From Niameybacter massiliensis (lineage in GTDB: Bacteria; Bacillota; Clostridia; Lachnospirales; Cellulosilyticaceae), in the NCBI RefSeq assembly GCF_001282685.1, contig NZ_LN875035.1, forward strand, positions 2,918,411 to 2,982,410: DNA of 64,000 nucleotides, given 5' to 3'. The position numbers and the translations under genes are program-made. Shown in pieces: positions 1-13,320 of this stretch. Under the pieces are notes generated by a model, which saw nothing but the letters and a program-made list of their open reading frames with translations, made no database searches and had not been told where the DNA came from. The number at the start of each line of letters is the position of its first letter. Position 1 is the first letter of the stretch.

Positions 1-8
1 CCTCCCCT
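1..8 (-). promoter_or_regulatory. Ribosome binding site of a gene beyond the left edge
   Basis: Read on the minus strand the first eight bases are AGGGGAGG, a strong Shine-Dalgarno sequence. The start codon would lie a few bases outside the window, so a gene runs leftwards, divergent from adhE. Nothing can be said about its product. Confidence 0.6.
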
Positions 9-410
9 TCCTATATACTTTTATTAATTTCTTATAGAGGTTCATTCTATACTTCTTTTCAACCATCTAATTACATTAATTACTTTACAACTTTTTTGTT
101 GCATTCGCAACTTTTGACTTAGTAATAGATATTTCTTTAACAAAAAAAGATATTTAATAAAAAGACTGCTATCTTAATATAGCTGTCCTTTTTATTAGAT
201 ATCTCCTTATATTTTTAGCTATAAAAATATTGTTAAAAATTAAATTTTCATATATTCCTAATATATATTTTAAAATTATTTAATAAAAATAGTTTATTTA
301 TTATTTCTGCCAATCTATTTCTCAAGATTTTTTTGTCATATAAGCTATTTTTTTATAACATATGTTTATTTTTTTATGCAATTAATGCATTTTTCTTTGA
401 CACTTACCAC
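9..410. other. AT-rich divergent intergenic region with one orphan hairpin
   Basis: This stretch holds no convincing reading frame. It is very AT-rich and separates the off-window minus-strand gene from adhE. At 159-193 a terminator-like hairpin is seen (AAAAAG and GCTAT paired with ATAGC and CTTTTT, with a small internal bulge), with T or A runs on both sides. A half Rex-like word TTGTTAA occurs near 230 without a good partner. Confidence 0.5.
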
Positions 411-428
411 TTGTTAAATAATTGACAA
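411..428. promoter_or_regulatory. Candidate Rex operator
   Basis: The sequence is TTGTTAAATAATTGACAA. It matches the Rex consensus of Firmicutes (TTGTTAA, four free bases, TTAACAA) at 13 of 14 fixed positions. It overlaps the -35 box of the adhE promoter, so bound Rex would block RNA polymerase. Rex control of adhE by the NADH/NAD+ ratio is established in other Firmicutes; here it is inferred from the site. Confidence 0.8.
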
Positions 429-450
429 TTTTAAACTCCAGTAGTATTAT
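422..450 (+). promoter_or_regulatory. adhE promoter
   Basis: A perfect -35 box TTGACA (422-427) is followed after 17 bases by TATTAT (445-450). The predicted start near 457 gives a leader of about 100 bases before the adhE ribosome site. Confidence 0.75.
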
Positions 451-556
451 TACAATGTATTCAAAATAAATATTAATTTTATATATTTATATGTAAATTA
501 ATAGTATATATAACAAATACGATATCTAATTATTGTTTATAAGGGAGGCTGTTATT

Positions 557-3172
557 ATGGCTACAGAAAAAAAAGCACCTGTTGAAGCTCCTGTTGTGGA
601 TGCTCAAGCTATGGTTAATGAATTAGTTGAAAAAGCAGATAAAGCACTTGAAGAGTACATGAAACTCGATCAAGAACAAATTGATAAAATCACTCAAGCT
701 ATGGCCCTTGCTGGTCTTTCAGCTCAAATGAAGCTTGCTAGAATGGCTGTTGAAGAAACAGGACGTGGCGTTTTTGAAGATAAAGTTACAAAAAATATCT
801 TTGCTACAGAATATATTTATCACAGTATTAAACATGACAAAACTGTTGGCTTAATCGAAGATAATGAAGATGAAGGTTATATGGAAATCGCTGAACCAGT
901 TGGTATTGTTTGCGGTGTTACACCTACTACTAACCCAACTTCAACTGCTATGTTTAAAGCAATTATCTGTGCAAAAACACGTAATCCTATCATCTTTGGT
1001 TTCCATCCATCTGCACAAAACTGCTCACGTGAAGCTGCTAAAATCGTAAGAGATGCTGCTGTTGCTGCTGGCGCTCCTGAAAACTGTGTTCAATGGATTG
1101 AATATCCATCAATTGATGCTACTACAGCTCTTATGAACCATCCAAAAGTTGCGATGATTCTTGCTACTGGTGGTTCTGCAATGGTTCGTTCTGCATACTC
1201 AGCTGGTAAACCAGCACTTGGTGTAGGCCCTGGTAACGTACCTGCTTTCATTGAAAAAACAGCTAACTTAGAACAATCTCTTACAGACCTTATGCTTTCA
1301 AAAGCATTTGATAACGGTATGATTTGTGCTTCTGAACAAGCTGCTATCATTGAAGCACCTGTTTATGATAAAGCAGTTGCTTTCATGAAAAAATTTGGTT
1401 GCTACTTTGCAACTAAAGAAGAAATTAAAAAACTTGAACCAATTGTTATCAACCCACAAAAACAAATGGTTAATCCAGATATCGTAGGTAAATATCCATA
1501 TGAAATTGCTGCTCTTGCAGGTATTACTATTCCAAAAGAAACAAAAGTACTTTGCTGTGAAATTGATGGCGTTGGCGAAGAATATCCTCTTTCAAGAGAA
1601 AAACTTTCTCCAGTACTTGCTGTTGTAAAAGCTAAAGATGCTGAAGATGGTATCAAAAAAGCTGAAACAATGGTTGAACTTGGTGGACTTGGTCATACAG
1701 CTGTTATCCACTCTACTGATGAAGCGCTTATTGAAGAATACGGTGAAAGACTTAAAGCTTGTCGTATCATTGTAAACTCTCCTTCTGCTTTTGGTGGTAT
1801 TGGTGATGTTTATAACTCAATGATGCCTTCATTAACTCTTGGTTGTGGTTCTTACGGACGTAACTCTACTTCTTCAAACGTTACAGCAATGAACTTAATT
1901 AATAAGAAAAGGGTGGCAAAGAGACGCGTGAATATGCAATGGTTTAAAATTCCAGAAAAAATCTATTTTGAAGCTGGCTCAGTTCAATACTTAGCAAAAA
2001 TGCCAAATATCTCTCGTGCATTAATCGTAGCTGACCCAATGATGGTTAAACTTGGTTATGTTGATCGTGTAACATACCAATTAAATAAAAATCCTAATAA
2101 GCTTTCTATTGAAATCTTCAGCGAAGTTGAGCCAGATCCAGACCTTGAAACAGTAAGAAAAGGTGCTGAAGTTATGCGTTCATTCCAACCAGACGTTATC
2201 ATCGCTCTTGGTGGTGGTTCTGCAATGGATGCTGGTAAAGCTATGTGGCTATTCTACGAACACCCAGAAGCTGACTTCGTTGGTATGGCACAAAAATTCT
2301 TAGATATTAGAAAACGTGTTTACAAATTCCCACACATGGGTAAAAATGCTAAATTTGTAGCTATTCCAACAACATCTGGTACTGGTTCAGAAGTAACATC
2401 ATTCGCTGTTATTTCAGATAAATCTAAGAATATGAAATACCCTCTTGCTGACTACGAATTAACACCAGATGTAGCTATTATCGATCCTGAATTTGTAATG
2501 AGTGTACCTGCTAGTCCTACTGCAGATACAGGTCTTGATGTATTAACACATGCTATTGAAGCATATGTATCTGTACTTGCTTCTGATTTCACAGACGCTC
2601 TTGCAATGAAAGCTATTCAACTTGTATTTGAATATTTACCACGCTCATACAAAAATGGTGCTAAAGACCCTGAAGCAAGAGAAAAAATGCACAATGCATC
2701 ATGTATTGCAGGTATGGCCTTTACTAATGCCTTCTTAGGTATTAACCACTCACTTGCTCATAAACTTGGTGGTGAATTCCACATTGCTCATGGTCGTGCA
2801 AACGCTATCCTTCTTCCACATGTTATCGCATACAACGGTGAAACAAATCCAACTAAGTTTATGGCATTCCCTAAATATGGTAAATTCACTGCTCCTGAAA
2901 GATATGCTGATATCGCTAGAATGTTAGGACTTCCTGCTTCTACTCCTGAAGAAGGTGTTAAATCTCTTGTTCAAGCTGTTCGTAACTTAATGAAAGAACT
3001 TAATGTTCCATTTACATTAAAAGAAATGGGTATTGATGAAAAAGTATATCTTGAAGCAATCAAAGACCTTTCATATAAAGCATTCGAAGACCAATGTACA
3101 ACAGCTAATCCAAGACTTCCAAAAGTTCCTGAATTAGAAGACCTTTACAAAAAAGCTTACTACGGTAAATAA
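557..3172 (+). CDS. adhE: Bifunctional acetaldehyde-CoA/alcohol dehydrogenase AdhE
   Basis: This 871-residue enzyme reduces acetyl-CoA to acetaldehyde and then ethanol, regenerating NAD+ in fermentation. The N-terminal aldehyde dehydrogenase half (about 1-450) has the catalytic Cys257 in NGMICASEQ. The C-terminal iron-dependent alcohol dehydrogenase half (about 460-871) has [12 protein letters not shown] for NAD and metal-ligand motifs [14 protein letters not shown] and [10 protein letters not shown] with HIAHGRANA. Length is normal for AdhE. The ATG at 557 is chosen because GGGAGG lies 8 bases upstream; an in-frame TTG at 533 has no ribosome site. The gene is monocistronic, with a Rex-type promoter and a strong terminator. 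Codon use is even and biased, as in a highly expressed gene. Confidence 0.97.
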
Positions 3173-3220
3173 AACATTAAGAAGAGGTAGCCCATATGGA
3201 CTACCTCTTCTTAATGTTTT
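3171..3220. terminator. Bidirectional terminator between adhE and agrB
   Basis: A perfect 20-bp stem (3171-3190 with 3201-3220) with a 10-base loop is flanked by T-rich sequence on one side and A-rich on the other. It can stop adhE from the left and agrB from the right. Confidence 0.9.
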
Positions 3221-3245
3221 TCATAGCTTTAACCTTTTTATATCT

Positions 3246-3833
3246 TTAATCAGTTTGTCTTACTCCTATGTAGTTCTTGATTTGTCCTAGGGTTACCATA
3301 ACCCCTACACTAATAATAACTACTTTTAAAGTTATAACTATTTCTTGATTGCCTAGAATACTAAACATTATCATCATTACTAGTAACAAAGATAAAATAA
3401 TTAATGCTATTTTTTTAAATACTCGTTTTTCATTCAAGCTTAATGGCTTATTAGTATCTTGTACTGGTACTAATGTTACTATTATGCCTAATGCTATGCA
3501 CAATAGTAAATTCCCTATTCCTTGACTCTTGCCTAGTAGATCTATTCCCATAAAACATACTATAAGCATTCCAACCGAAAACAAATAGCACCTTATCCTT
3601 GTCTTTGCGTGATATCCCCCTGCATATGACCTTAATGGAATATATGCCATCATAAAAATAAGACTTGCTAATAGTTTATTAAAGAACATACCCAGAACCA
3701 GTGTTGTACATATATTAATACCTATTAATATTACTTGTTCAATCCCATAGATATAAATGGGTTTATCCTCAGGTACAATAACTTTATTTTCTATTAGATA
3801 ATCCGCCATTTGTTGACTTATTGCTGATAACAT
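3246..3833 (-). CDS. agrB: AgrB-type peptide-processing membrane protease
   Basis: AgrB is an integral membrane cysteine endopeptidase that cleaves the AgrD precursor and forms its thiolactone ring. This 195-residue protein has several hydrophobic segments and the family core RSYAGGYHAKT. His75 and Cys82 are seven residues apart, the same spacing as the catalytic His77/Cys84 of S. aureus AgrB. Its ATG overlaps the agrD stop (TAATG), and no separate ribosome site is visible, so translation is probably coupled to agrD. It is the last gene of the agrD-agrB transcript, which ends at the shared adhE terminator. Confidence 0.93.
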   Translation of the reverse strand: MLSAISQQMADYLIENKVIVPEDKPIYIYGIEQVILIGINICTTLVLGMFFNKLLASLIFMMAYIPLRSYAGGYHAKTRIRCYLFSVGMLIVCFMGIDLLGKSQGIGNLLLCIALGIIVTLVPVQDTNKPLSLNEKRVFKKIALIILSLLLVMMIMFSILGNQEIVITLKVVIISVGVMVTLGQIKNYIGVRQTD

Positions 3834-3976
3834 TAAAATTTACTCAACTTTTTAGCTTCATCTGGAAGTTCTGGTTGGTGTACAAGAAAAACACAAGCAC
3901 TATTTGAATTAAATGCAGTGATTACTAGTGCAAGGCTTGCTACAATTCCACTTAATTTTAATAACATATTTTTCAT
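3833..3976 (-). CDS. agrD: AgrD-type cyclic autoinducing peptide precursor
   Basis: This 47-codon gene was found by reading the gap between agrC and agrB. It has an amphipathic N-terminal part (MKNMLLKLSGIVASLALVI), then NSACVFLV, then an acidic/proline tail HQPELPDEAKKLSKF. This is the AgrD layout. By alignment with S. aureus AgrD-I (ring CDFIM followed by DEPEVP) the predicted ring is Cys28-Val-Phe-Leu-Val32 with cleavage before His33. Ring size and the N-terminal tail of the mature signal are inferred. GGAGGAG lies about 8 bases before the ATG. It has its own promoter (4012-4041). Confidence 0.92.
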   Translation of the reverse strand: MKNMLLKLSGIVASLALVITAFNSNSACVFLVHQPELPDEAKKLSKF

Positions 3977-4011
3977 CTGGCTCTCCTCCTTCAGCTATAT
4001 TTACACTAGTA

Positions 4012-4041
4012 ATTATACTACTTTTTCACAATATTTGTCTA
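4012..4041 (-). promoter_or_regulatory. agrDB promoter
   Basis: On the minus strand TAGACA (4036-4041), an 18-base spacer and a perfect TATAAT (4012-4017) are seen about 35 bases before the agrD start. This splits the locus into agrAC and agrDB transcripts. I could not find convincing LytTR-type repeats upstream of it. Confidence 0.65.
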
Positions 4042-4082
4042 TTTATGTAATAAATTATAATATTATTTTTAATCTCTTATTT

Positions 4083-5357
4083 TCAATCAATATACATTAA
4101 TGCTAGAGCAGAAAAAACATTTTCTGCATACTCTATTTCTAAGGAACCATCATACTTTTCCAATGTACGTTTAATGCTTTCTAATCCTATACCATGATTT
4201 TCTTTATCTTGATGGGTTGTCAGTATAGACTCTCCGTCTTTTTCTATCACACCATTAAAAGTATTTTCAACTTTTATAATCAGTACTCCTTTTGTATACT
4301 TTATCTTGACATGAATATATTTATGTTCCTCTATTTTATTTACTGCATTGATAGCATTATCCAATAGGTTTCCTAAAATAACAGACATGTCAAAGGAAGA
4401 TAACTCTAGTTCAAAAGGAATATATAGTTCAGCAATTACTTTTATATTCTCTTCTACTGCTTGTTGTAATTTAAAATTTAAAATACTATCTATTGCAATA
4501 TTACCTGACTGAGCATATTCTTGTTGTAACTCACAAACATCCATTATCTCACTAATATGTTTGATTGCATTGTCTTTCTCATCTCGTTCAACTAAGGCAA
4601 GTAACATATATAAATGATTTTTTAAATCATGCTTTATTGTTCTTGTTGTTTTTACTGAAGATTTCATCATATTAAATTGTTTTTCATAATACATATTTTG
4701 TTGAGCAATCCACTTTTTCTCAGCTTCTTCACTATACATTTTTGAAATAACATCATATAAATAAAATGTTCCAAAGTTCATCAATAATAATAATGCAATT
4801 ATAATACACATAACAACATTTGAAATAACATATGTTTTGAAAAGTACTAGAATAATATATAGTGACGCCACTGGCATAAGCAATAAACAAACCCAGTATG
4901 ATATTTGTACCTTTTCACCATCTTTAATCCTTTTAAATTTGCTTAAGCACGTAATTATACTGTAGTTTGCAAGTGCTAACACTACTAGTGTATAAGATAA
5001 GGAATAATCATTTTGAGCCATAATATCAAACTTTATACCCGAAAGCATAGTAATAACGATAATTTCTATACACATTGAAATTAAATAAATAAAGGCAACT
5101 GCTATCGTTCGTTTTTTTAAAGGTGCTTTGTAGTTTAAGGTCAAACAAAAATAGGCAATTATATTCGTCATTAACATGATAATGGGTATCTTAACAACCA
5201 AATACATAAATGAACTACATAAAAAATATAAAATATAAGATAACTGCTCTATCCTTTTATTGCAATCTTTATTATAAAAAAAGATCATCATAAACTTATA
5301 CAATGTATAAGTTCCTAAAATATTAGTACATAAATATACTCCCTCATATAATGTCAT
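4083..5357 (-). CDS. agrC: AgrC-type sensor histidine kinase
   Basis: This 424-residue protein has about six N-terminal membrane segments (roughly 10-200) that would sense the peptide signal. A cytoplasmic GHKL kinase follows: H-box IKHDLKNHLY with His243, N-box LLDNAINAV and G-box HGIGLESIKR near the C-terminus. This matches the AgrC family, which lacks a periplasmic loop domain. The gene starts three bases after the agrA stop, with AAGGA upstream, so the two form an operon. About 106 bases separate it from agrD, where a new promoter lies. Confidence 0.9.
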   Translation of the reverse strand: MTLYEGVYLCTNILGTYTLYKFMMIFFYNKDCNKRIEQLSYILYFLCSSFMYLVVKIPIIMLMTNIIAYFCLTLNYKAPLKKRTIAVAFIYLISMCIEIIVITMLSGIKFDIMAQNDYSLSYTLVVLALANYSIITCLSKFKRIKDGEKVQISYWVCLLLMPVASLYIILVLFKTYVISNVVMCIIIALLLLMNFGTFYLYDVISKMYSEEAEKKWIAQQNMYYEKQFNMMKSSVKTTRTIKHDLKNHLYMLLALVERDEKDNAIKHISEIMDVCELQQEYAQSGNIAIDSILNFKLQQAVEENIKVIAELYIPFELELSSFDMSVILGNLLDNAINAVNKIEEHKYIHVKIKYTKGVLIIKVENTFNGVIEKDGESILTTHQDKENHGIGLESIKRTLEKYDGSLEIEYAENVFSALALMYID

Positions 5358-5360
5358 AAT

Positions 5361-6077
5361 CTAATTATCCTTTTCTAAACTTAATTGGATTTGTCTTATT
5401 TCTTTCCTTCTAGACTGTCCTATAGGCAATAAATCATTATTTGTCATAATGACTGCATCATATTTAAATCGACTTATATGTACGTAATTAACTACATAAG
5501 ATCTATGTATTTGAAGAAATTGGTACTGTCCTACTCTCTTTAAAACATTTTCTATAGAATCATAAAAGGTTTCTTCACCTTTTATATGTACCATACGTAT
5601 TTCTCGATTTAGGCTTTCAAAATATAGAATATCTTTGATAGGTATACTATATTTTTCAAACCCTTTTTTATATGTAAAAGATCCTCTTCTTTTATCTGCT
5701 AATCTTATAGCTAACTTCACATCTTCAATTACCTTGTCAGCTACTAGTGGTTTGGGTAAAAAATGCATTGGCTGTACATCAAATAATTCTCTGTCATAAT
5801 GATTTTTTGCTGAGATATAAACAATCTTTGTCTCATAATCATCCATAATCTCTCTTATAATTCTTCCAACTTGAATGCCATTAAGTTTTTTCATTTCAAT
5901 ATCTAGGAATATTAAATCAAAACTATTCTCTTTTTCTAGATACTTACATAAAGATTCTCCATTATAAAAAATCTCTACCTCTATCTTCATAGTAATAGTT
6001 TCTTGAAAATTTAAAATAAGCTGCTCTATATCGGCACATATTAATCGGTCATCATCACATACTGCTATTTTAAACAT
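5361..6077 (-). CDS. agrA: AgrA-type LytTR response regulator
   Basis: The N-terminal receiver domain (about 1-120) has the acidic pair Asp8/Asp9, phospho-acceptor Asp59 in LIFLDIEM and Lys109 in LPKP. The C-terminal LytTR DNA-binding domain (about 135-235) contains YFESLNREIRMVHI and LQIHRSYVVNYVHI. The 238-residue length is normal for AgrA. The product should be phosphorylated by the AgrC encoded just downstream and activate the peptide operon. The gene order agrA-agrC-agrD-agrB is the reverse of the staphylococcal order. Confidence 0.92.
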   Translation of the reverse strand: MFKIAVCDDDRLICADIEQLILNFQETITMKIEVEIFYNGESLCKYLEKENSFDLIFLDIEMKKLNGIQVGRIIREIMDDYETKIVYISAKNHYDRELFDVQPMHFLPKPLVADKVIEDVKLAIRLADKRRGSFTYKKGFEKYSIPIKDILYFESLNREIRMVHIKGEETFYDSIENVLKRVGQYQFLQIHRSYVVNYVHISRFKYDAVIMTNNDLLPIGQSRRKEIRQIQLSLEKDN

Positions 6078-6120
6078 AAATATTTTTTTCTCCCTCTGAT
6101 ATCATTATTCACTGAAATAT

Positions 6121-6166
6121 ATTATACATTATGTAGGCAAAAATAAAATAAAGATTTATTTTATTT
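6121..6166 (-). promoter_or_regulatory. agrA promoter region with a 12-bp palindrome
   Basis: A minus-strand TATAAT (6121-6126) lies 44 bases before agrA, with no good -35 box. At 6141-6166 a perfect inverted repeat is found: AAATAAAATAAA, two bases, TTTATTTTATTT. It sits over the -35 region and could be an operator or an intrinsic AT-rich element. Confidence 0.45.
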
Positions 6167-6247
6167 ATTCCGTATGCAATTATTATTCTTGCTCATACTA
6201 ATAACGTGCAAATTATTTTTACTATAATCCTAGGGAGGTATTTCAAA

Positions 6248-6400
6248 ATGGGAAAAAAACCAAAAACTCCAACCTGCAATGCATGGGTTAGTAATACAAG
6301 TGATGAAAGCGTGAAATATTTTCATGATAAAGCGAAGAAATCTGCTGGTGATAACCAATGGACTTCTACTTGTGTAACAAAAGGATTATTAAACAAATAA
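6248..6400 (+). CDS. Orphan 50-residue peptide with two cysteines
   Basis: I do not recognise this gene. The 50-residue product starts MGKKPKTPTCNAWVSNT, is lysine-rich and soluble, has no signal peptide or membrane segment, and carries Cys10 and Cys42. The ATG at 6248 has GGGAGG nine bases upstream, and a strong terminator follows at once. It is therefore a real transcription unit rather than chance. It is divergent from agrA across 170 bases, so it could be an agr target, but nothing proves that. Confidence 0.7.
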   Translation: MGKKPKTPTCNAWVSNTSDESVKYFHDKAKKSAGDNQWTSTCVTKGLLNK

Positions 6401-6410
6401 TAGTACATCA

Positions 6411-6446
6411 AAAAGGGTGTTGCATAAGATTATGCAATACCCTTTT
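6411..6446. terminator. Bidirectional terminator
   Basis: AAAAGGGT and TTGCATAA pair with TTATGCAA and ACCCTTTT around a tight loop. A and T runs on both sides serve the 50-residue peptide gene (plus) and the MacB-like gene (minus), whose stop codon lies in the hairpin. Confidence 0.88.
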
Positions 6447-7659
6447 ATTCTTCTAAAATAGTTCTCCATTTATTTATTAAAGCATGTATACCTAAAAGTA
6501 GAGGAATACTACACCAAAAGGCTGGTATAATCAACACACTACCCTCTATTATATAAATACTTATAATGCTTATAAAGCTTATGATTATTGACATCAGTAT
6601 ACATCCAAAATACTCACTTGTTTCTTCAAATACTGCCTTTTTAATAATCATTATACACCCTAGTAAACTCACAATAAAGCTACTCATGAGTACAACATAC
6701 ACCTCTTGATACCACCCATCTGCTATAGAAGTTGGTAGCATTTTTAGCATCTGCTCATTGGCTCTAAACTTCTCTAACAAGCTGGACCAAAATGCAAAGT
6801 CTGACCACCTATTGGGTATAATGTAAGAAGGTAATTGTATCGAAAGCTGTAATACCTCACCCGTAACCCAAGTTATACCTATAGCTATTATAGAAAGAAC
6901 AATTGCAGATATCCAATATCTATGGGTTCTATAAATATAGAAATACAGCTTAAGCATTCCATACACACCTAATAGACAGCCAGGTATAAGCGCTAGATAA
7001 CTTAACAAAATACTTTTTAAGGATAAATTGTTGTATATTCCCTTTGGTAAATTATATTTGAACTGCAAAGTATTAAGTGTTTCCTCAACATTGTCATTAT
7101 CTATAAACTCAATTCGAGCTACATTAAATTTAGCTTCTTCATTAGTTGTATCAGATTGGACAATAATACTTTTTGATTTGTCTTTTAATATACCTCTTAT
7201 AGTATAGTCTTTATCTTGAAGTGTAATCTGCTTCCCTACTACATCTGTATTTCCCCATAATTCATAAGCTACTTGCTCTGTAATAATGGCTCCTTCTAAA
7301 TCATTTTCATAGAGTCCATTTCCTATTAATTCTTTGGTTTCAAATAATAATCTCGTATTACCATAAACCTTAAGTTGATTTCCTTCAATACTCCTCCCAA
7401 GATCTTGATTCTTCATGGTTTGTTGCGTTTCCTGATTCCAAGCTACTAGACCACTAATAATTCTATCTTTACTTTCTAGCTGGTCTTTTAATACACTTTC
7501 TAGTTGATCTCCTGTTAATCCTTCTTTCTCATAGTGTAACTGCACCACATGATCTAAGGCTTGTATTTTCTGTGCATTGACTAAGCATATACCCCACGCA
7601 AATAAGGTAACTGCTAGAATACTTATATAAATGAGCACATGCTTAGTACACTTTATCAT
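6445..7659 (-). CDS. MacB-like multi-spanning membrane protein
   Basis: This 404-residue protein has one N-terminal membrane segment (about 7-27), an extracytoplasmic domain (about 30-215) and about five C-terminal membrane segments. The extracytoplasmic part contains GAIITEQVAYELWG, then VVGKQITLQDKDYTIRGILKD, a pattern typical of MacB periplasmic-core domains of FtsX-like ABC exporters. The C-terminal part is longer than the usual three segments. It overlaps the HlyD gene by four bases (ATGA) and is the last gene of the operon. No ATPase partner is encoded nearby. FtsX-like exporter permease is the best guess; a signalling or lipoprotein-release role is also possible. Confidence 0.65.
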   Translation of the reverse strand: MIKCTKHVLIYISILAVTLFAWGICLVNAQKIQALDHVVQLHYEKEGLTGDQLESVLKDQLESKDRIISGLVAWNQETQQTMKNQDLGRSIEGNQLKVYGNTRLLFETKELIGNGLYENDLEGAIITEQVAYELWGNTDVVGKQITLQDKDYTIRGILKDKSKSIIVQSDTTNEEAKFNVARIEFIDNDNVEETLNTLQFKYNLPKGIYNNLSLKSILLSYLALIPGCLLGVYGMLKLYFYIYRTHRYWISAIVLSIIAIGITWVTGEVLQLSIQLPSYIIPNRWSDFAFWSSLLEKFRANEQMLKMLPTSIADGWYQEVYVVLMSSFIVSLLGCIMIIKKAVFEETSEYFGCILMSIIISFISIISIYIIEGSVLIIPAFWCSIPLLLGIHALINKWRTILEE

Positions 7660-9452
7660 TGCTCCATCAGGCGTACTCTATCGCCTGACTTAATTGGTTT
7701 ATTCGACTTGATAATAATATTATCTTGTGGACTAAATGCCCCTTCTACAGCTACAGAACTTTCATTACTCTCTTTTTTCATCACATTAACTCTTTCTGCA
7801 ACCATTTCTTCTCCCAAAGTTGTTACCTTTTTCTTTGCCACAAGTACATAATAGCTTCCATTATCTTCTTTTAATGCTTCTACTGGCACGATCGAATTAT
7901 ATTGTTCCGATTGATTTGTTACTTCAAATGATGCATTCATACCTGGAATGCCTTCTGGTACAGAAATACTTATTTTTTTCTTACTTCCACCTTCACCTTG
8001 GACATATGAAATATTTTCTACTATTGTATTTTCTAACGGTCTTTTTTCGCCTTCAAGGGTTACAATAACCTGATCCCCTACTTGTATGCCTTCACTTTTT
8101 TCCTGACTAAGTTCTACCTCTAGTACATACTTACTATCATCACCTATAAATGTAACTAATTCACCACCAGTAGTTACTTGACCTTTTTCAACTTTAATTT
8201 CTTTAATCATTCCATCTGCTGGTGCTACAAGCTTACCGCCTTCTGCTATAATCTTTTGAATACGGCTAATTTCCTTTTCTTTAGCTGCAATATCCACTTG
8301 CATAAGTTGCTTTTCTATTGCTTGTTTTTGCTCAGATTGTTGCTCTTCTAAATCCATATTATTTTCTTTTTGTACTGCCAATTCTACTTCTTTTTTAGCC
8401 GACTCTATTTGTCTATCTAGATCTTTAATAAGCTCTTCTTGTTCTATAATAAGGTCTTCTTGTAAACGTTTCTGTTCTTCTACTACACGCTCCGCTGCTT
8501 TTACTTTTTCTTCTTCTTGTTTTAAAAGTTCTTGGTCAACTTCGCCATTTTCCAGTTGAATCACTTTGTCTTTAGCTTTTTTAAATTTTTCTTCTGCTTC
8601 TTTTACATTTCTATCCCAATCTGACTTTGTAATGTTATATTCCATTTGGGCACGGTCTACAGCTTGCTGAGCACTGGTAATATCCACACCTTGGCCTGCT
8701 GTCATCCAGAAGTTTTCTTTGGCTTCATTTAAAACCTGTTCTGATCTTTTAAGTGCTTTATCTCTTTCATACTTTTGATTTTCTAAATGGCGCTTAGCTT
8801 CATCTTCTTCTTCACGCGCCTTCTTAAGCTGCTCTTCCAAATTACTTCCTTTAAAAGCTTCTAAATCTTTCTTTGCACTAAGCAAATCTTCTTCTGCTTG
8901 TTTAATTTTCTGTTCACCTCTACTGATTTTAACTTTCCCCTTCTCAGTAGCATTTAACTTTTCTTCCTCAAGCTTTGTAACTTTGTTATTCGCCTCTTCA
9001 AGAGGTGAAAGTACTGTACTATAATCTTCATTTAACCCTAATTGTTGTAATCTTAATTTTAGTTTTGCTAAATCATCCTGAGACATCTCTAACTTTTCTT
9101 GTAACTCTTTTGCATCTAGTTCTAAGATAGGCTCACCTTTTTTAATACGGTCATCTACTTCTACAAAGATGTCTTTTACTTTAAGCCCACTGCTTGCTTC
9201 CATACTCTCTTCATCTTTTGCTTTTAATACACCATTTCCTTGTATTTTGTGTTCAATACGCCCTCCCTTTGGGAGTGCAATTGTAACTTGTGGTGTTGTT
9301 AGTGCATTCGCTGTTCTTGACAGTCCTGTCAAAGTGACCATAATAATCAGAAATCCTGCTAGACCTTTGATTGCCACTTGTTTTACTTTATCTCTATCCT
9401 CTTTTGGCGAGGGTAATTGTCTTTGAAGTTGCTGCTTTAATTCTATTTTCAT
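7656..9452 (-). CDS. HlyD-family membrane fusion/adaptor protein
   Basis: The 598-residue protein has an N-terminal membrane anchor (about 30-50), a lipoyl-like half (GNGVLKAKDEESMEASSG), a very long charged coiled coil (about 110-390, rich in KAEE and QEEEK runs), the second lipoyl half (VAPADGMIKEIKVEKGQV) and a beta-barrel region. This is the HlyD/MacA/AcrA adaptor layout, with an unusually long hairpin. The ATG at 9452 has AAAGG eight bases upstream and is preferred over a GTG at 9473. It follows the MalG-type permease gene and overlaps the MacB-like gene, suggesting one complex. Confidence 0.85.
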   Translation of the reverse strand: MKIELKQQLQRQLPSPKEDRDKVKQVAIKGLAGFLIIMVTLTGLSRTANALTTPQVTIALPKGGRIEHKIQGNGVLKAKDEESMEASSGLKVKDIFVEVDDRIKKGEPILELDAKELQEKLEMSQDDLAKLKLRLQQLGLNEDYSTVLSPLEEANNKVTKLEEEKLNATEKGKVKISRGEQKIKQAEEDLLSAKKDLEAFKGSNLEEQLKKAREEEDEAKRHLENQKYERDKALKRSEQVLNEAKENFWMTAGQGVDITSAQQAVDRAQMEYNITKSDWDRNVKEAEEKFKKAKDKVIQLENGEVDQELLKQEEEKVKAAERVVEEQKRLQEDLIIEQEELIKDLDRQIESAKKEVELAVQKENNMDLEEQQSEQKQAIEKQLMQVDIAAKEKEISRIQKIIAEGGKLVAPADGMIKEIKVEKGQVTTGGELVTFIGDDSKYVLEVELSQEKSEGIQVGDQVIVTLEGEKRPLENTIVENISYVQGEGGSKKKISISVPEGIPGMNASFEVTNQSEQYNSIVPVEALKEDNGSYYVLVAKKKVTTLGEEMVAERVNVMKKESNESSVAVEGAFSPQDNIIIKSNKPIKSGDRVRLMEQ

Positions 9453-9474
9453 CACGCTTACCTTTCTTGCCACT

Positions 9475-10314
9475 CTACTCTTTTAAACCTGCAACTCGAA
9501 TGCCTGCTTCTAAATCATTTTGTCCCCATAAGAAGACAAGAAGAGCTGGTATAAGCATAATAACTGAAGCAACAATAGATACACCTAACTTATCTATTGC
9601 TATATTAGGCAGATATAAAGATAGTGGCCATAATGATTTATTTTGTAAAAATGTTAAAGGCTGTTCTATCATATTCCAGTACTCTAAAAAGCCTAACACA
9701 AGTGCTGATACAATTCCTGGTGCTCCAAGGGGTAACCCTATGTATAAGAACGTTTTAAAATGTCCTGCCCCATCTATTTGAATAGCTTCTATCATAGCTT
9801 CTGGGATAGATTTAAAAAATCGATACATAATGAATACTGGAAAAGTGGAAAAGATAGCAGGCAAAATAATCGCAAGCCTTGTATCTAAAAGTTGTAACTT
9901 ATCTAATACTAAATAGTTAGGTACCATCGTTACCTGAAATGGCATTAGCATTAAGGCTATGTACATTGTAAAAATCGTTTTCTTAAAAGGAAATCTAAAC
10001 CTTGCAAACGCCCATGCCGCCGGCATACCAAAACATACTTGCCCAATAAGAATAGGTACTACAATTTTAACTGAGTTCCAAAACATAGCAAAAAACTCTG
10101 GTGAATCTAACAATAGCTCAACATAAGGCATAAGCGTTGGATACTTAGGGATAAGAGGCCAGTTAGCAAGGCCAGATTTTCCAGCAAGTACTGGTCCAAA
10201 TCCTGCCCTTATTTCATCTAGTGGCATAAAAGACCCACTAAAAAGCATCCACAAAGGTAACCATACAATGAGGGCCAGTATACTTACAAATGCAATCGGT
10301 ATATACTTTTTCAT
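9475..10314 (-). CDS. Carbohydrate ABC transporter permease, MalG type
   Basis: This 279-residue protein has six membrane segments and the EAA loop IEAIQIDGAGHFKTFLYIGLP, which contacts the ATPase. It belongs to the CUT1 sugar permease family. Its ATG overlaps the stop of the preceding permease (ATGA). In CUT1 systems the ATPase is often encoded elsewhere (MsmX-type), and none is present here. Confidence 0.9.
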   Translation of the reverse strand: MKKYIPIAFVSILALIVWLPLWMLFSGSFMPLDEIRAGFGPVLAGKSGLANWPLIPKYPTLMPYVELLLDSPEFFAMFWNSVKIVVPILIGQVCFGMPAAWAFARFRFPFKKTIFTMYIALMLMPFQVTMVPNYLVLDKLQLLDTRLAIILPAIFSTFPVFIMYRFFKSIPEAMIEAIQIDGAGHFKTFLYIGLPLGAPGIVSALVLGFLEYWNMIEQPLTFLQNKSLWPLSLYLPNIAIDKLGVSIVASVIMLIPALLVFLWGQNDLEAGIRVAGLKE

Positions 10315-11228
10315 CCTTCCTCATCCTCCGCCCATGTTTTTTGCAAGATTAAAATTAATATAAAGATTACAAGAGATACAATTGTTGCTGCTGCTGATAA
10401 CTTATCAATATCAAGGGATACAAACCAGTTATTAAACAGATGCTGTAACATATACATACTGTCATGAGGGTAGTCCCCTGCGATCAAATAGGCTTCTCTA
10501 AATACTTTAAAGGAATTAAGTAATGAAAGCACAACAATTGTAAATAAGGTTGGTAAAAGCTGAGGAATTGTAATCTTAGTAAATTGCTGCCATCCATTTG
10601 CCCCATCTACCCTAGCTGCTTCATATATAGCAGGTGATATAGTGCTAAGCCCTGCTAACCATAGCACCATATCATACCCTATATTACGCCACAAATAACT
10701 TAATATTAAAATCCAAAAAGCCCAGTCACTTTTCATCCAGTCTACACTTTGTCCTCCAAGTGCTAGAATGCCTTTACTTAATAATCCATTTTGATGAAAT
10801 AGAACTTGCCATAGTAGTACAACTGAAGCCACTGGGATTGCCATTGGTAAAAGAAAAGTCATTTTAAAGACTTTAGCACTTTTATTTAGCTTGTTAATAA
10901 GAAGTGCTAAGCCTAGAGAAGTAATGACGAGTACTGGAATACAAATGGCTATAAACTTCAAAGTATTCCCTGACGCTAGCTTAAAAGCTTCATTTTGAAA
11001 TATAGTGCTATAGTTTTTAAGCCCAACGAATTTACCACTCATTGCTCCAAAAAAAGACCTTCTAATAACATCCATGAAAGGAAGCATAATAAAAATCATA
11101 ACCCCTAATAAGCTAGGTAATAAGAAGCAAAATGCAACCTTCCACTCATTCTTTTTTTTATTCTGCCAAATAGGCTCTTGTACGTTTTGCAACTGCACTT
11201 GCAGCTTCTTCGGCTGTTTTCTCACCAT
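10311..11228 (-). CDS. Carbohydrate ABC transporter permease, MalF type
   Basis: The 305-residue protein has six membrane segments after a basic cytoplasmic N-terminus, and the EAA motif YEAARVDGANGWQQFTKITIP. It pairs with the MalG-type permease just downstream. The ATG at 11228 is supported by AAAGGA seven bases upstream, although this places the first 24 codons inside the 3' end of the binding-protein gene, in another frame. No later in-frame ATG precedes the first membrane segment. Confidence 0.9.
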   Translation of the reverse strand: MVRKQPKKLQVQLQNVQEPIWQNKKKNEWKVAFCFLLPSLLGVMIFIMLPFMDVIRRSFFGAMSGKFVGLKNYSTIFQNEAFKLASGNTLKFIAICIPVLVITSLGLALLINKLNKSAKVFKMTFLLPMAIPVASVVLLWQVLFHQNGLLSKGILALGGQSVDWMKSDWAFWILILSYLWRNIGYDMVLWLAGLSTISPAIYEAARVDGANGWQQFTKITIPQLLPTLFTIVVLSLLNSFKVFREAYLIAGDYPHDSMYMLQHLFNNWFVSLDIDKLSAAATIVSLVIFILILILQKTWAEDEEG

Positions 11229-13320
11229 TAAAGTATCCTTTCGTTTCTTGTATAATTAAATTTAATAACACTTCATCTTTTACTACTGGTATAGTAGCTT
11301 TTTCTGCAAGTTCCTTCACTTTTGAATAAACTTCTTGTGTTACCTCTATCATTGCAATTGGTTTTTCAAAGCTTACTGGATACGATATAAAGTTTTGTTC
11401 TGGGTTTAATACAGCTTGCTCTTCAAAAGTTTGTTTATGAACAGGTAATCCATCTCCTAGATTTACACTTTGTACTTCTTTTGACATTGCTAATTGAACA
11501 ATCTCTCTTGCAATATCTTGATATTTACTATTTGCATTAATTCCAATAATACCTCTAGGCTCAAATGTACTTTCTTCACCTGCAAATATTAAGTCAAAAT
11601 CTCCATCTCCTTGTTGAGTGATCGCAGAATATTGATAATTTAGGCCATCAAAACCAGAAATATTTTCTAAATGAAGTTCTGTATCCTTACTAGCCATATA
11701 CTCTGTTGAAAGGAAGTTCCAAGCTATCTCATCTTGTTCTCCCATGTTATCTACCTGAGTTAATTCTTTTATAGCTTCTAAGAAAGTTATGAATTCTGCC
11801 TCTTTAATTTGTCCTTTTTCATCAATCCAAGTATGAGCTGTTGGGCCATATAGAAGATTCATAAGTTTTTCAGGTGACATCTTATAAAATACTTCTTTGT
11901 CTGGGTTAGACTTCGCCCATGAAGCAAGGTCCTCTATACCTTTAATATTTTCTATAATAGCTTTATTTCCCCACATTGTTGGAAGTGAAAATCTAAGAGG
12001 TAATGTATAGATAGAATTCTCCTCTTGAAAAGCACCAACAATATTTGGTAACCATTCTCCTTGTTCAATTTTCTCTTTTGCCCAATTACTCATATCTAAC
12101 AATACACCTTTTTCAATATAAGATTGTACTGGTAGACCATCTAAAAGTAATAAGTCCGGTCCTTTTCCTGCTAATAATTGTGTGTTAAGGGTACGTATAG
12201 CATCTGCTTTTGTCATACTTCCCCCTTCTTCAACCCCTACTTGAATATTAATAAATACACCAGGATTTTGACGTTGATACGTTGCTATTGCTTGTCGCAT
12301 GGTTACATTATCTTCTAGCATATAGAGGTTTACTTCTGTAGTTGGCTTAGTTGGTGTATTTGGATCAAAACGATAATGGCTCAGTTGATATCCCATATCT
12401 CTATCATAGAAGAGGACTAAAAACTCTTCATCACCTTTAACCATTCCATTTTCTATATATAGTGAAGGCATTCCAAAAGAACTAAGTTGTCCTTCAATAA
12501 TTTGTTCCCATACACTTCCGCCTTTTGCAAGTCTGCTCACCCCTTCTTCATTGATGAGATAAGCATTTCCATCTGAACTCACTTCTAATTTGCTTCCCCA
12601 TAATGAACCTTCACATGGAATAAATGTTTTCTCCTTGGCTGTTTCTAAGTCAAAAGTAACTAGCCCACCTCTTAAGGTATCTAATAACATGACTTCATCT
12701 TGATTAAAGCCAAATTCACGGTCCATTCCTGTACTTAAGTATTCTTTAATCACTGCTCCTGTTGTACTATCTAAGACTACAACGCCGTTATACTGTAACC
12801 CTACGGCAATGTTACCATCAGGTAAAGCTTTTATCCCTGTTACAGAATACGCTAAATCATTTGTATCATAGGGTACTTCTTCTAATGCTTCATTATTTAC
12901 TACTTTTGCTATATGTATCTTGTAATCATCATCAAAATAGGATACATAGATAGTGCTTTTACCATCATGAGCAATTTGTATCCCCATATTATTCTCTTCT
13001 ACTAATTTTTCAAACCACTTAGCTTCTTCTTTCACCCATTCTTTACCATCTTTTGATGTATAAGTAACCCCTTTATTATTGGCAGTATATCCATATACTT
13101 GAATACGTTCATCTTCTAAAACTTGATAATGTACTAAGCTTTTTAGATCCTTTGGAAGTTCTATATTTTCTTCTATATAACGACCCATAGGTGTATCCTT
13201 AGAATCTTGATTGGTTGTATTTACTTCACTTTTTATTTCTTGATTGCTACATGCAGTTACTGACATCATTGTTGTTACTATAAGTAAACTTGCCATTAAT
13301 CTATAAATATGTTTTTTCAT
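11158..13320 (-). CDS. Solute-binding lipoprotein with N-terminal propeller-like domain
   Basis: The 720-residue lipoprotein has a signal peptide ending in VTAC with Cys24 as the likely lipidated residue. Residues about 35-320 look like beta-propeller repeats (for example YTSKDGKEWVKE, VVVLDSTTGAVIKEYL, MLLDTLRGGLVTFDLETA). From about 325 a type-1 sugar-binding domain follows (TMRQAIATYQRQNPG, GKGPDLLLLDG, YTLPLRFSLP). Usual binding proteins have about 430 residues, so this is a fusion. GAGGAG before the ATG at 13320 decides the start; an ATG eight codons earlier has none. It is first in the operon feeding the two permeases. Confidence 0.87.
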   Translation of the reverse strand: MKKHIYRLMASLLIVTTMMSVTACSNQEIKSEVNTTNQDSKDTPMGRYIEENIELPKDLKSLVHYQVLEDERIQVYGYTANNKGVTYTSKDGKEWVKEEAKWFEKLVEENNMGIQIAHDGKSTIYVSYFDDDYKIHIAKVVNNEALEEVPYDTNDLAYSVTGIKALPDGNIAVGLQYNGVVVLDSTTGAVIKEYLSTGMDREFGFNQDEVMLLDTLRGGLVTFDLETAKEKTFIPCEGSLWGSKLEVSSDGNAYLINEEGVSRLAKGGSVWEQIIEGQLSSFGMPSLYIENGMVKGDEEFLVLFYDRDMGYQLSHYRFDPNTPTKPTTEVNLYMLEDNVTMRQAIATYQRQNPGVFINIQVGVEEGGSMTKADAIRTLNTQLLAGKGPDLLLLDGLPVQSYIEKGVLLDMSNWAKEKIEQGEWLPNIVGAFQEENSIYTLPLRFSLPTMWGNKAIIENIKGIEDLASWAKSNPDKEVFYKMSPEKLMNLLYGPTAHTWIDEKGQIKEAEFITFLEAIKELTQVDNMGEQDEIAWNFLSTEYMASKDTELHLENISGFDGLNYQYSAITQQGDGDFDLIFAGEESTFEPRGIIGINANSKYQDIAREIVQLAMSKEVQSVNLGDGLPVHKQTFEEQAVLNPEQNFISYPVSFEKPIAMIEVTQEVYSKVKELAEKATIPVVKDEVLLNLIIQETKGYFNGEKTAEEAASAVAKRTRAYLAE

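Follow-up and report, generated by a model that had tools for sequence, protein, structure and literature searches.

A locus likely to encode a complete agr peptide quorum-sensing circuit, with a predicted CVFLV ring, in Niameybacter massiliensis

A four-gene agr locus in Niameybacter

We analyzed a 64,000-nucleotide stretch of the Niameybacter massiliensis genome (hereafter, the window) and found that its reverse strand carries four adjacent genes, in the order agrA-agrC-agrD-agrB, that very likely make up a complete agr peptide quorum-sensing circuit. A preliminary description had proposed a complete locus in this order with a 47-residue AgrD, and these proposals held: agrA (5361–6077), agrC (4083–5357), agrD (3833–3976) and agrB (3246–3833) all lie on the minus strand, and agrA, agrC and agrB are intact and each encode the expected domains.

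The agrD gene is an intact frame of 47 codons that opens with ATG behind the ribosome-binding site AAGGAGGAG and encodes the predicted autoinducing-peptide precursor MKNMLLKLSGIVASLALVITAFNSNSACVFLVHQPELPDEAKKLSKF. An AgrD profile search had been suggested as a check, and the NCBIfam model TIGR04223 (quorum_AgrD) matched the protein with 51.4 bits (E = 8e-14; cut-off 19), whereas the staphylococcal Pfam model PF05931 gave 12.6 bits, below its gathering cut-off of 22.7. Because His33 and Gln34 replace Asp33 and Glu34 of Staphylococcus aureus, the protein fits, on its profile scores, the broad AgrD family and not the staphylococcal model. A search of the whole genome (4.57 Mb) returned two TIGR04223 matches and two AgrB genes, and each AgrD adjoins one AgrB, which excludes chance as an explanation of the match.

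The agrB gene encodes a 195-aa membrane peptidase that matches Pfam PF04647 with 127.9 bits (3.7e-37). The residues R70, G75, H77 and C84, which are essential in S. aureus AgrB (PMC10196373), are all kept with numbers two lower (R68, G73, H75 and C82), and they occupy invariant columns in an alignment of ten AgrB sequences. No sequence relatives of AgrB were found among solved structures. The product of agrC is a 424-aa membrane sensor histidine kinase, assigned from its hydropathy, a GHKL ATPase domain (PF14501, 2.2e-26), a weak SPOB_a match, and motifs that comprise His243, an N box at 330 and a G box at 388; a profile built from its relatives matched the S. aureus AgrC kinase structures 6e52 and 4bxi. 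AgrA is a 238-aa response regulator with a LytTR DNA-binding domain (PF00072 and PF04397), and the corresponding profile matched S. aureus AgrA (3bs1) and ComE (4cbv).

The genes are tightly packed. agrA ends 3 bp before agrC, the agrB start codon shares one base with the agrD stop, and only agrC and agrD are set apart, by an A+T-rich gap of 106 bp. All four frames are intact, and both agrD and agrA have good ribosome-binding sites. Beyond agrB, a 23-bp hairpin at 3174–3222 (-35.8 kcal/mol, z -9.25) separates it from a convergent gene for a bifunctional aldehyde/alcohol dehydrogenase and is probably a terminator shared by the two transcripts.

On the other side of the locus, a 50-aa ORF, MGKKPKTPTCNAWVSNTSDESVKYFHDKAKKSAGDNQWTSTCVTKGLLNK, runs divergently from agrA at 6248–6400 on the plus strand. 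Counterparts with 56–66% identity occur in five further genomes of the family, and none of the Pfam and NCBIfam models matched it. We considered it as a part of the circuit and rejected it, as in all five other genomes it lies far from the AgrB match or in a genome that has no such match. Further along, an export-like pair is encoded at 6445–9473 on the minus strand, consisting of a 605-aa HlyD/RND-type adaptor, whose long middle part is charged and probably a coiled coil, and a 404-aa MacB-like membrane protein; sugar-ABC-type permease genes follow this pair.

Distribution of the A-C-D-B cassette

In our genome set, Niameybacter groups with the gut bacterium Cellulosilyticum at the level of the family but belongs to another genus. 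A relative of AgrB was detectable in 34 of 116 genomes, a set made up of the window's own genome and relatives. When the contigs of named genomes were scanned, the AgrA alignment as a query recovered 79 loci and AgrB alone recovered none. The A-C-D-B cassette with a matching AgrD was present in at least ten other Firmicutes genomes. Among named genomes it was found in Cellulosilyticum (L044/L063), Lutispora thermophila (L065), Fontibacillus panacisegetis (L064) and Lachnoanaerobaculum gingivalis (L061), with further examples at L035, L037, L040, L058, L059, L069, L078 and L125 and in genome G008 (L039). Relatives of AgrD with 45–60% identity are encoded in the equivalent gene cluster. The order was D-B-A-C in Tissierella pigra (L057). 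Since A-C-D-B has also been published for agr2 of Clostridioides difficile, as agrACDB (PMC3754575), and is present in many relatives, the order in Niameybacter is not unusual.

At the G008 locus (L039, 5975–9285), two agrDB copies follow a single agrAC pair; both encode the ring CMFIM, and the two AgrB copies differ. Searches among phages returned no similar DNA, and the AgrB matches from phages and plasmids were distant, with about 35% identity or less; such distant relatives occur on three IMG/VR contigs classed as viral (L134, L135 and L136) and in eight phage records. The locus thus shows no sign of carriage by a mobile element.

Candidate promoter and paired repeat upstream of agrD

The preliminary description had also proposed a separate promoter for agrDB. 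This is plausible in view of the A+T-rich gap, where the candidate TAGACA-18-TATAAT (4041–4012, minus strand) matches the consensus at 11 of 12 positions and is the best match of the region, but promoter-like matches were no more numerous in the region than in shuffled sequences. The spacer of 18 nt equals that of the S. aureus P2 promoter, where AgrA binds direct repeats that come as a pair with its centre near -60 (PMC4227749).

Paired repeats stand out in the relatives. The 150 bp upstream of agrD were compared across 18 loci (17 relatives and the window) against 200 shuffles. Self-similarity at spacings of 20–23 bp summed to 172, whereas the shuffles had a mean of 140 and a maximum of 146 and other spacings gave 134–149. 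A paired direct repeat about 22 bp apart precedes agrD in the 17 relatives, a feature that emerged from this analysis; its spacing is as expected for a LytTR regulator. A two-copy motif derived from the 17 relatives alone, with the form of roughly [AG]TT[TC]NTTACA, scored 253, compared with 174–203 for 25 shuffled sets and 186–200 for other spacings, and in 14 of the 17 relatives the paired sites finish 66–89 nt before the agrD ATG. In genome G087 (L038, 5659–5802), agrD lies between agrA and agrB on the strand opposite to agrA, agrC and agrB, and a perfect paired repeat stands upstream of it.

The window itself shows part of this arrangement. A candidate promoter-proximal AgrA half-site, ATTTATTACA, lies at 4046–4055 on the minus strand, 69 nt before the agrD ATG and at the expected position. 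In an anchored shuffle test with a held-out motif from 15 of the 17 loci it gave p of about 0.004, a value that is indicative, as it followed trials of several other motifs and spacings. A distal copy 21–22 bp further upstream was not recognisable in the held-out motif scan, and the anchored pair was not significant (p 0.067). A perfect repeat pair did not turn up in the window either, the best self-similarity being 8 of 11 (p 0.66 unanchored, 0.16 anchored). In all, 31 sites in the window score at least as well as its own best pair, so that paired-site matches elsewhere in it are at background level. Autoregulation through AgrA thus appears well supported for the family and partly supported for the Niameybacter locus.

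No Rfam family matched at the gathering threshold within positions 1–12000, a search that an unrelated RNA could escape. A divergent RNAIII of the S. aureus type was not found in the same search, and the 106-bp gap between agrC and agrD is too small for one.

A second agr-type cluster and the choice of receptor

The Niameybacter genome holds a second agr-type cluster, at about 1.137–1.141 Mb of contig C11 (L054, 4983–8553). It comprises, in order, a DUF5317 gene, an ORF for a 157-aa membrane protein, agrB2, agrD2 and a gene for a membrane GGDEF/HD-GYP protein, with no agrC adjacent. The predicted ring of AgrD2 is CMWAF, followed by YQPEEP. The two genes that precede agrBD recall the Clostridium perfringens operon (PMC2706048), and the same five-gene order is kept in genomes G021 (L149, ring CFWAG) and G008 (L150, ring CIWAS). 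The last gene raises a possible link from a peptide signal to cyclic-di-GMP.

With two AgrD signals in one genome, the peptide made by AgrD and AgrB of the locus in the window might not be read by the adjacent AgrC and AgrA; another kinase could read one of the two signals, or the systems could cross-talk. We regard this as unlikely, though it is the strongest of the alternatives considered. It draws on the presence of a CMWAF cluster that lacks an adjacent agrC and on C. perfringens, for which evidence that VirS reads the Agr-like signal has been reported (PMC7492741). However, agrA, agrC, agrD and agrB stay together in many genera, and the repeat upstream of agrD agrees with a LytTR regulator acting there. 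Both points favor the adjacent AgrC and AgrA as the reader of the signal.

Placement of the ring

To place the ring, we aligned 47 distinct AgrD sequences on the cysteine and calculated the entropy of each column. The cysteine and a proline at +10 were invariant, an invariance that is partly built in because candidates were selected with a search pattern (one more AgrD candidate was left out as lying outside it), whereas the difference between ring and flank does not arise in that way. Mean entropy was 2.81 bits over the four residues that follow the cysteine, compared with 0.96 bits for the six residues after the ring, which are conserved as HQPxLP and read HQPELP in the window. This combination of a variable ring and a conserved flank is the pattern of specificity-determining autoinducing peptides, and it places the predicted ring at Cys28–Val32 (CVFLV), in agreement with the preliminary description; the placement is one read from the sequences. 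The ring is followed in AgrD by HQPELP and the tail DEAKKLSKF. C28, Q34 and P38 were invariant in all 11 AgrDs of a separate alignment.

The position-for-position correspondence with staphylococcal AgrD that had been pointed out around the ring is also borne out, in that the numbering agrees: S. aureus AgrD1 also has its cysteine at position 28 and is cut by AgrB between M32 and D33 (PMC10196373), the position predicted in Niameybacter. Yet the next two residues are His33 and Gln34, as is usual in the clostridial set, in place of D33 and E34, which are essential for cleavage in S. aureus (PMC10196373). CVFLV was not found in the literature searched and appears to be a new ring sequence.

A variant in which the circuit is unchanged but AgrB cuts after His33 to give a six-residue ring, CVFLVH, seems improbable. 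His33 directly adjoins Val32, and clostridial rings vary in size, that of C. acetobutylicum being listed with six residues (PMC12312760, Table 1). On the other hand, position +5 was only H, Y or N across the 47 homologues, with an entropy of 0.98 bits, and so behaves like a recognition segment and unlike the variable ring. In addition, the rings of C. perfringens (CLWFT) and Listeria (CFMFV) have five residues, and the ring of C. thermocellum verified by LC-MS/MS stops right before a tyrosine (PMC5322536). A five-residue CVFLV ring remains the preferred assignment. That the locus is decayed or silent is the least probable of the alternatives and very hard to maintain, given four intact frames, a full set of catalytic and signature residues and good ribosome-binding sites at agrD and agrA, even though a single regulator half-site can be recognised where two were expected.

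Proposed circuit and peptide chemistry

The four genes, their domains, the catalytic residues, the position of the ring, the gene order and the family-wide paired repeat are features of the DNA and its predicted products, and we infer the chemistry, sensing, feedback and targets described below. The 47 residues of AgrD would form the precursor, including a hydrophobic leader. As a membrane cysteine peptidase with Cys82 and His75, AgrB would cut between Val32 and His33 and link the thiol of Cys28 to the carbonyl of Val32, closing a ring of five residues, CVFLV. Trimming of the N-terminal leader would come later and might leave no residue before Cys28. The released peptide would bind the membrane domain of AgrC, which would phosphorylate AgrA; AgrA may then bind at about -55, ahead of the agrDB promoter, leading to more signal and to the expression of further target genes. 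Our confidence as to what the locus controls is low.

Five-residue rings have been verified as a thiolactone for the Listeria signal CFMFV (PMC4916163) and as a lactone in C. thermocellum (PMC5322536). Pentameric thiolactones without an exotail rearrange to homodetic cyclopeptides through an S-to-N acyl shift. For the Listeria peptide the half-life was 1.3 min (37 °C, pH 7), and a comparable shift has been described in Ruminiclostridium cellulolyticum (PMC11297923). If no residue is left before Cys28, the Niameybacter thiolactone should likewise rearrange spontaneously to homodetic cyclo(CVFLV). Because such tail-less pentapeptides rearrange within minutes, the absence of a thiolactone from culture supernatants would not disprove the agr assignment.

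Taken jointly, we tentatively suggest, at rather less than even odds, that the A-C-D-B cassettes of Firmicutes share one AgrA site, approximately two copies of [AG]TT[TC]NTTACA about 22 bp apart and mostly 66–89 nt before agrD, and that a tail-less CVFLV thiolactone converts rapidly to cyclo(CVFLV). Through such a conversion, the chemistry itself would set the lifetime of the signal.

Comparison with known agr systems

Going by its published description, agr2 of C. difficile R20291 is a close counterpart, with the same A-C-D-B order, a LytTR-type AgrA and an AgrD of 46 aa against 47 (PMC3754575). Its predicted ring, SSWVA, starts with serine (PMC12312760), whereas that of Niameybacter starts with cysteine. 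The S. aureus system has the same four proteins, with AgrD numbered alike at Cys28 and at the cut behind residue 32, with the catalytic residues of AgrB in register, and with an 18-nt spacing at P2. It differs in its order (agrBDCA), in having D-E instead of H-Q after the ring, and in having RNAIII, for which the Niameybacter window gave no Rfam match; the Niameybacter AgrD also falls below the staphylococcal Pfam cut-off. The agr system of Listeria monocytogenes shares a hydrophobic five-residue cysteine ring that ends in valine (PMC4916163, PMC11297923) but differs in order (agrBDCA) and ring sequence, and its signal has an exotail of none or one residue. The AgrD-type pentapeptide of C. thermocellum is likewise a five-residue clostridial ring cut before an aromatic residue; in contrast, it is closed as a lactone through serine and has no agr genes adjacent (PMC5322536).

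The Niameybacter locus is an ordinary agr locus, of a kind that is both widespread and well studied. With it, the complete agr circuits gain one whose ring is specific and cheap to synthesise, from a family of anaerobes that degrade fibre and are related to Cellulosilyticum; the literature searched yielded no earlier work on an agr circuit in this family. The paired repeat upstream of agrD, common to distant genera, offers a handle on the targets of AgrA in clostridia, which are mostly unknown.
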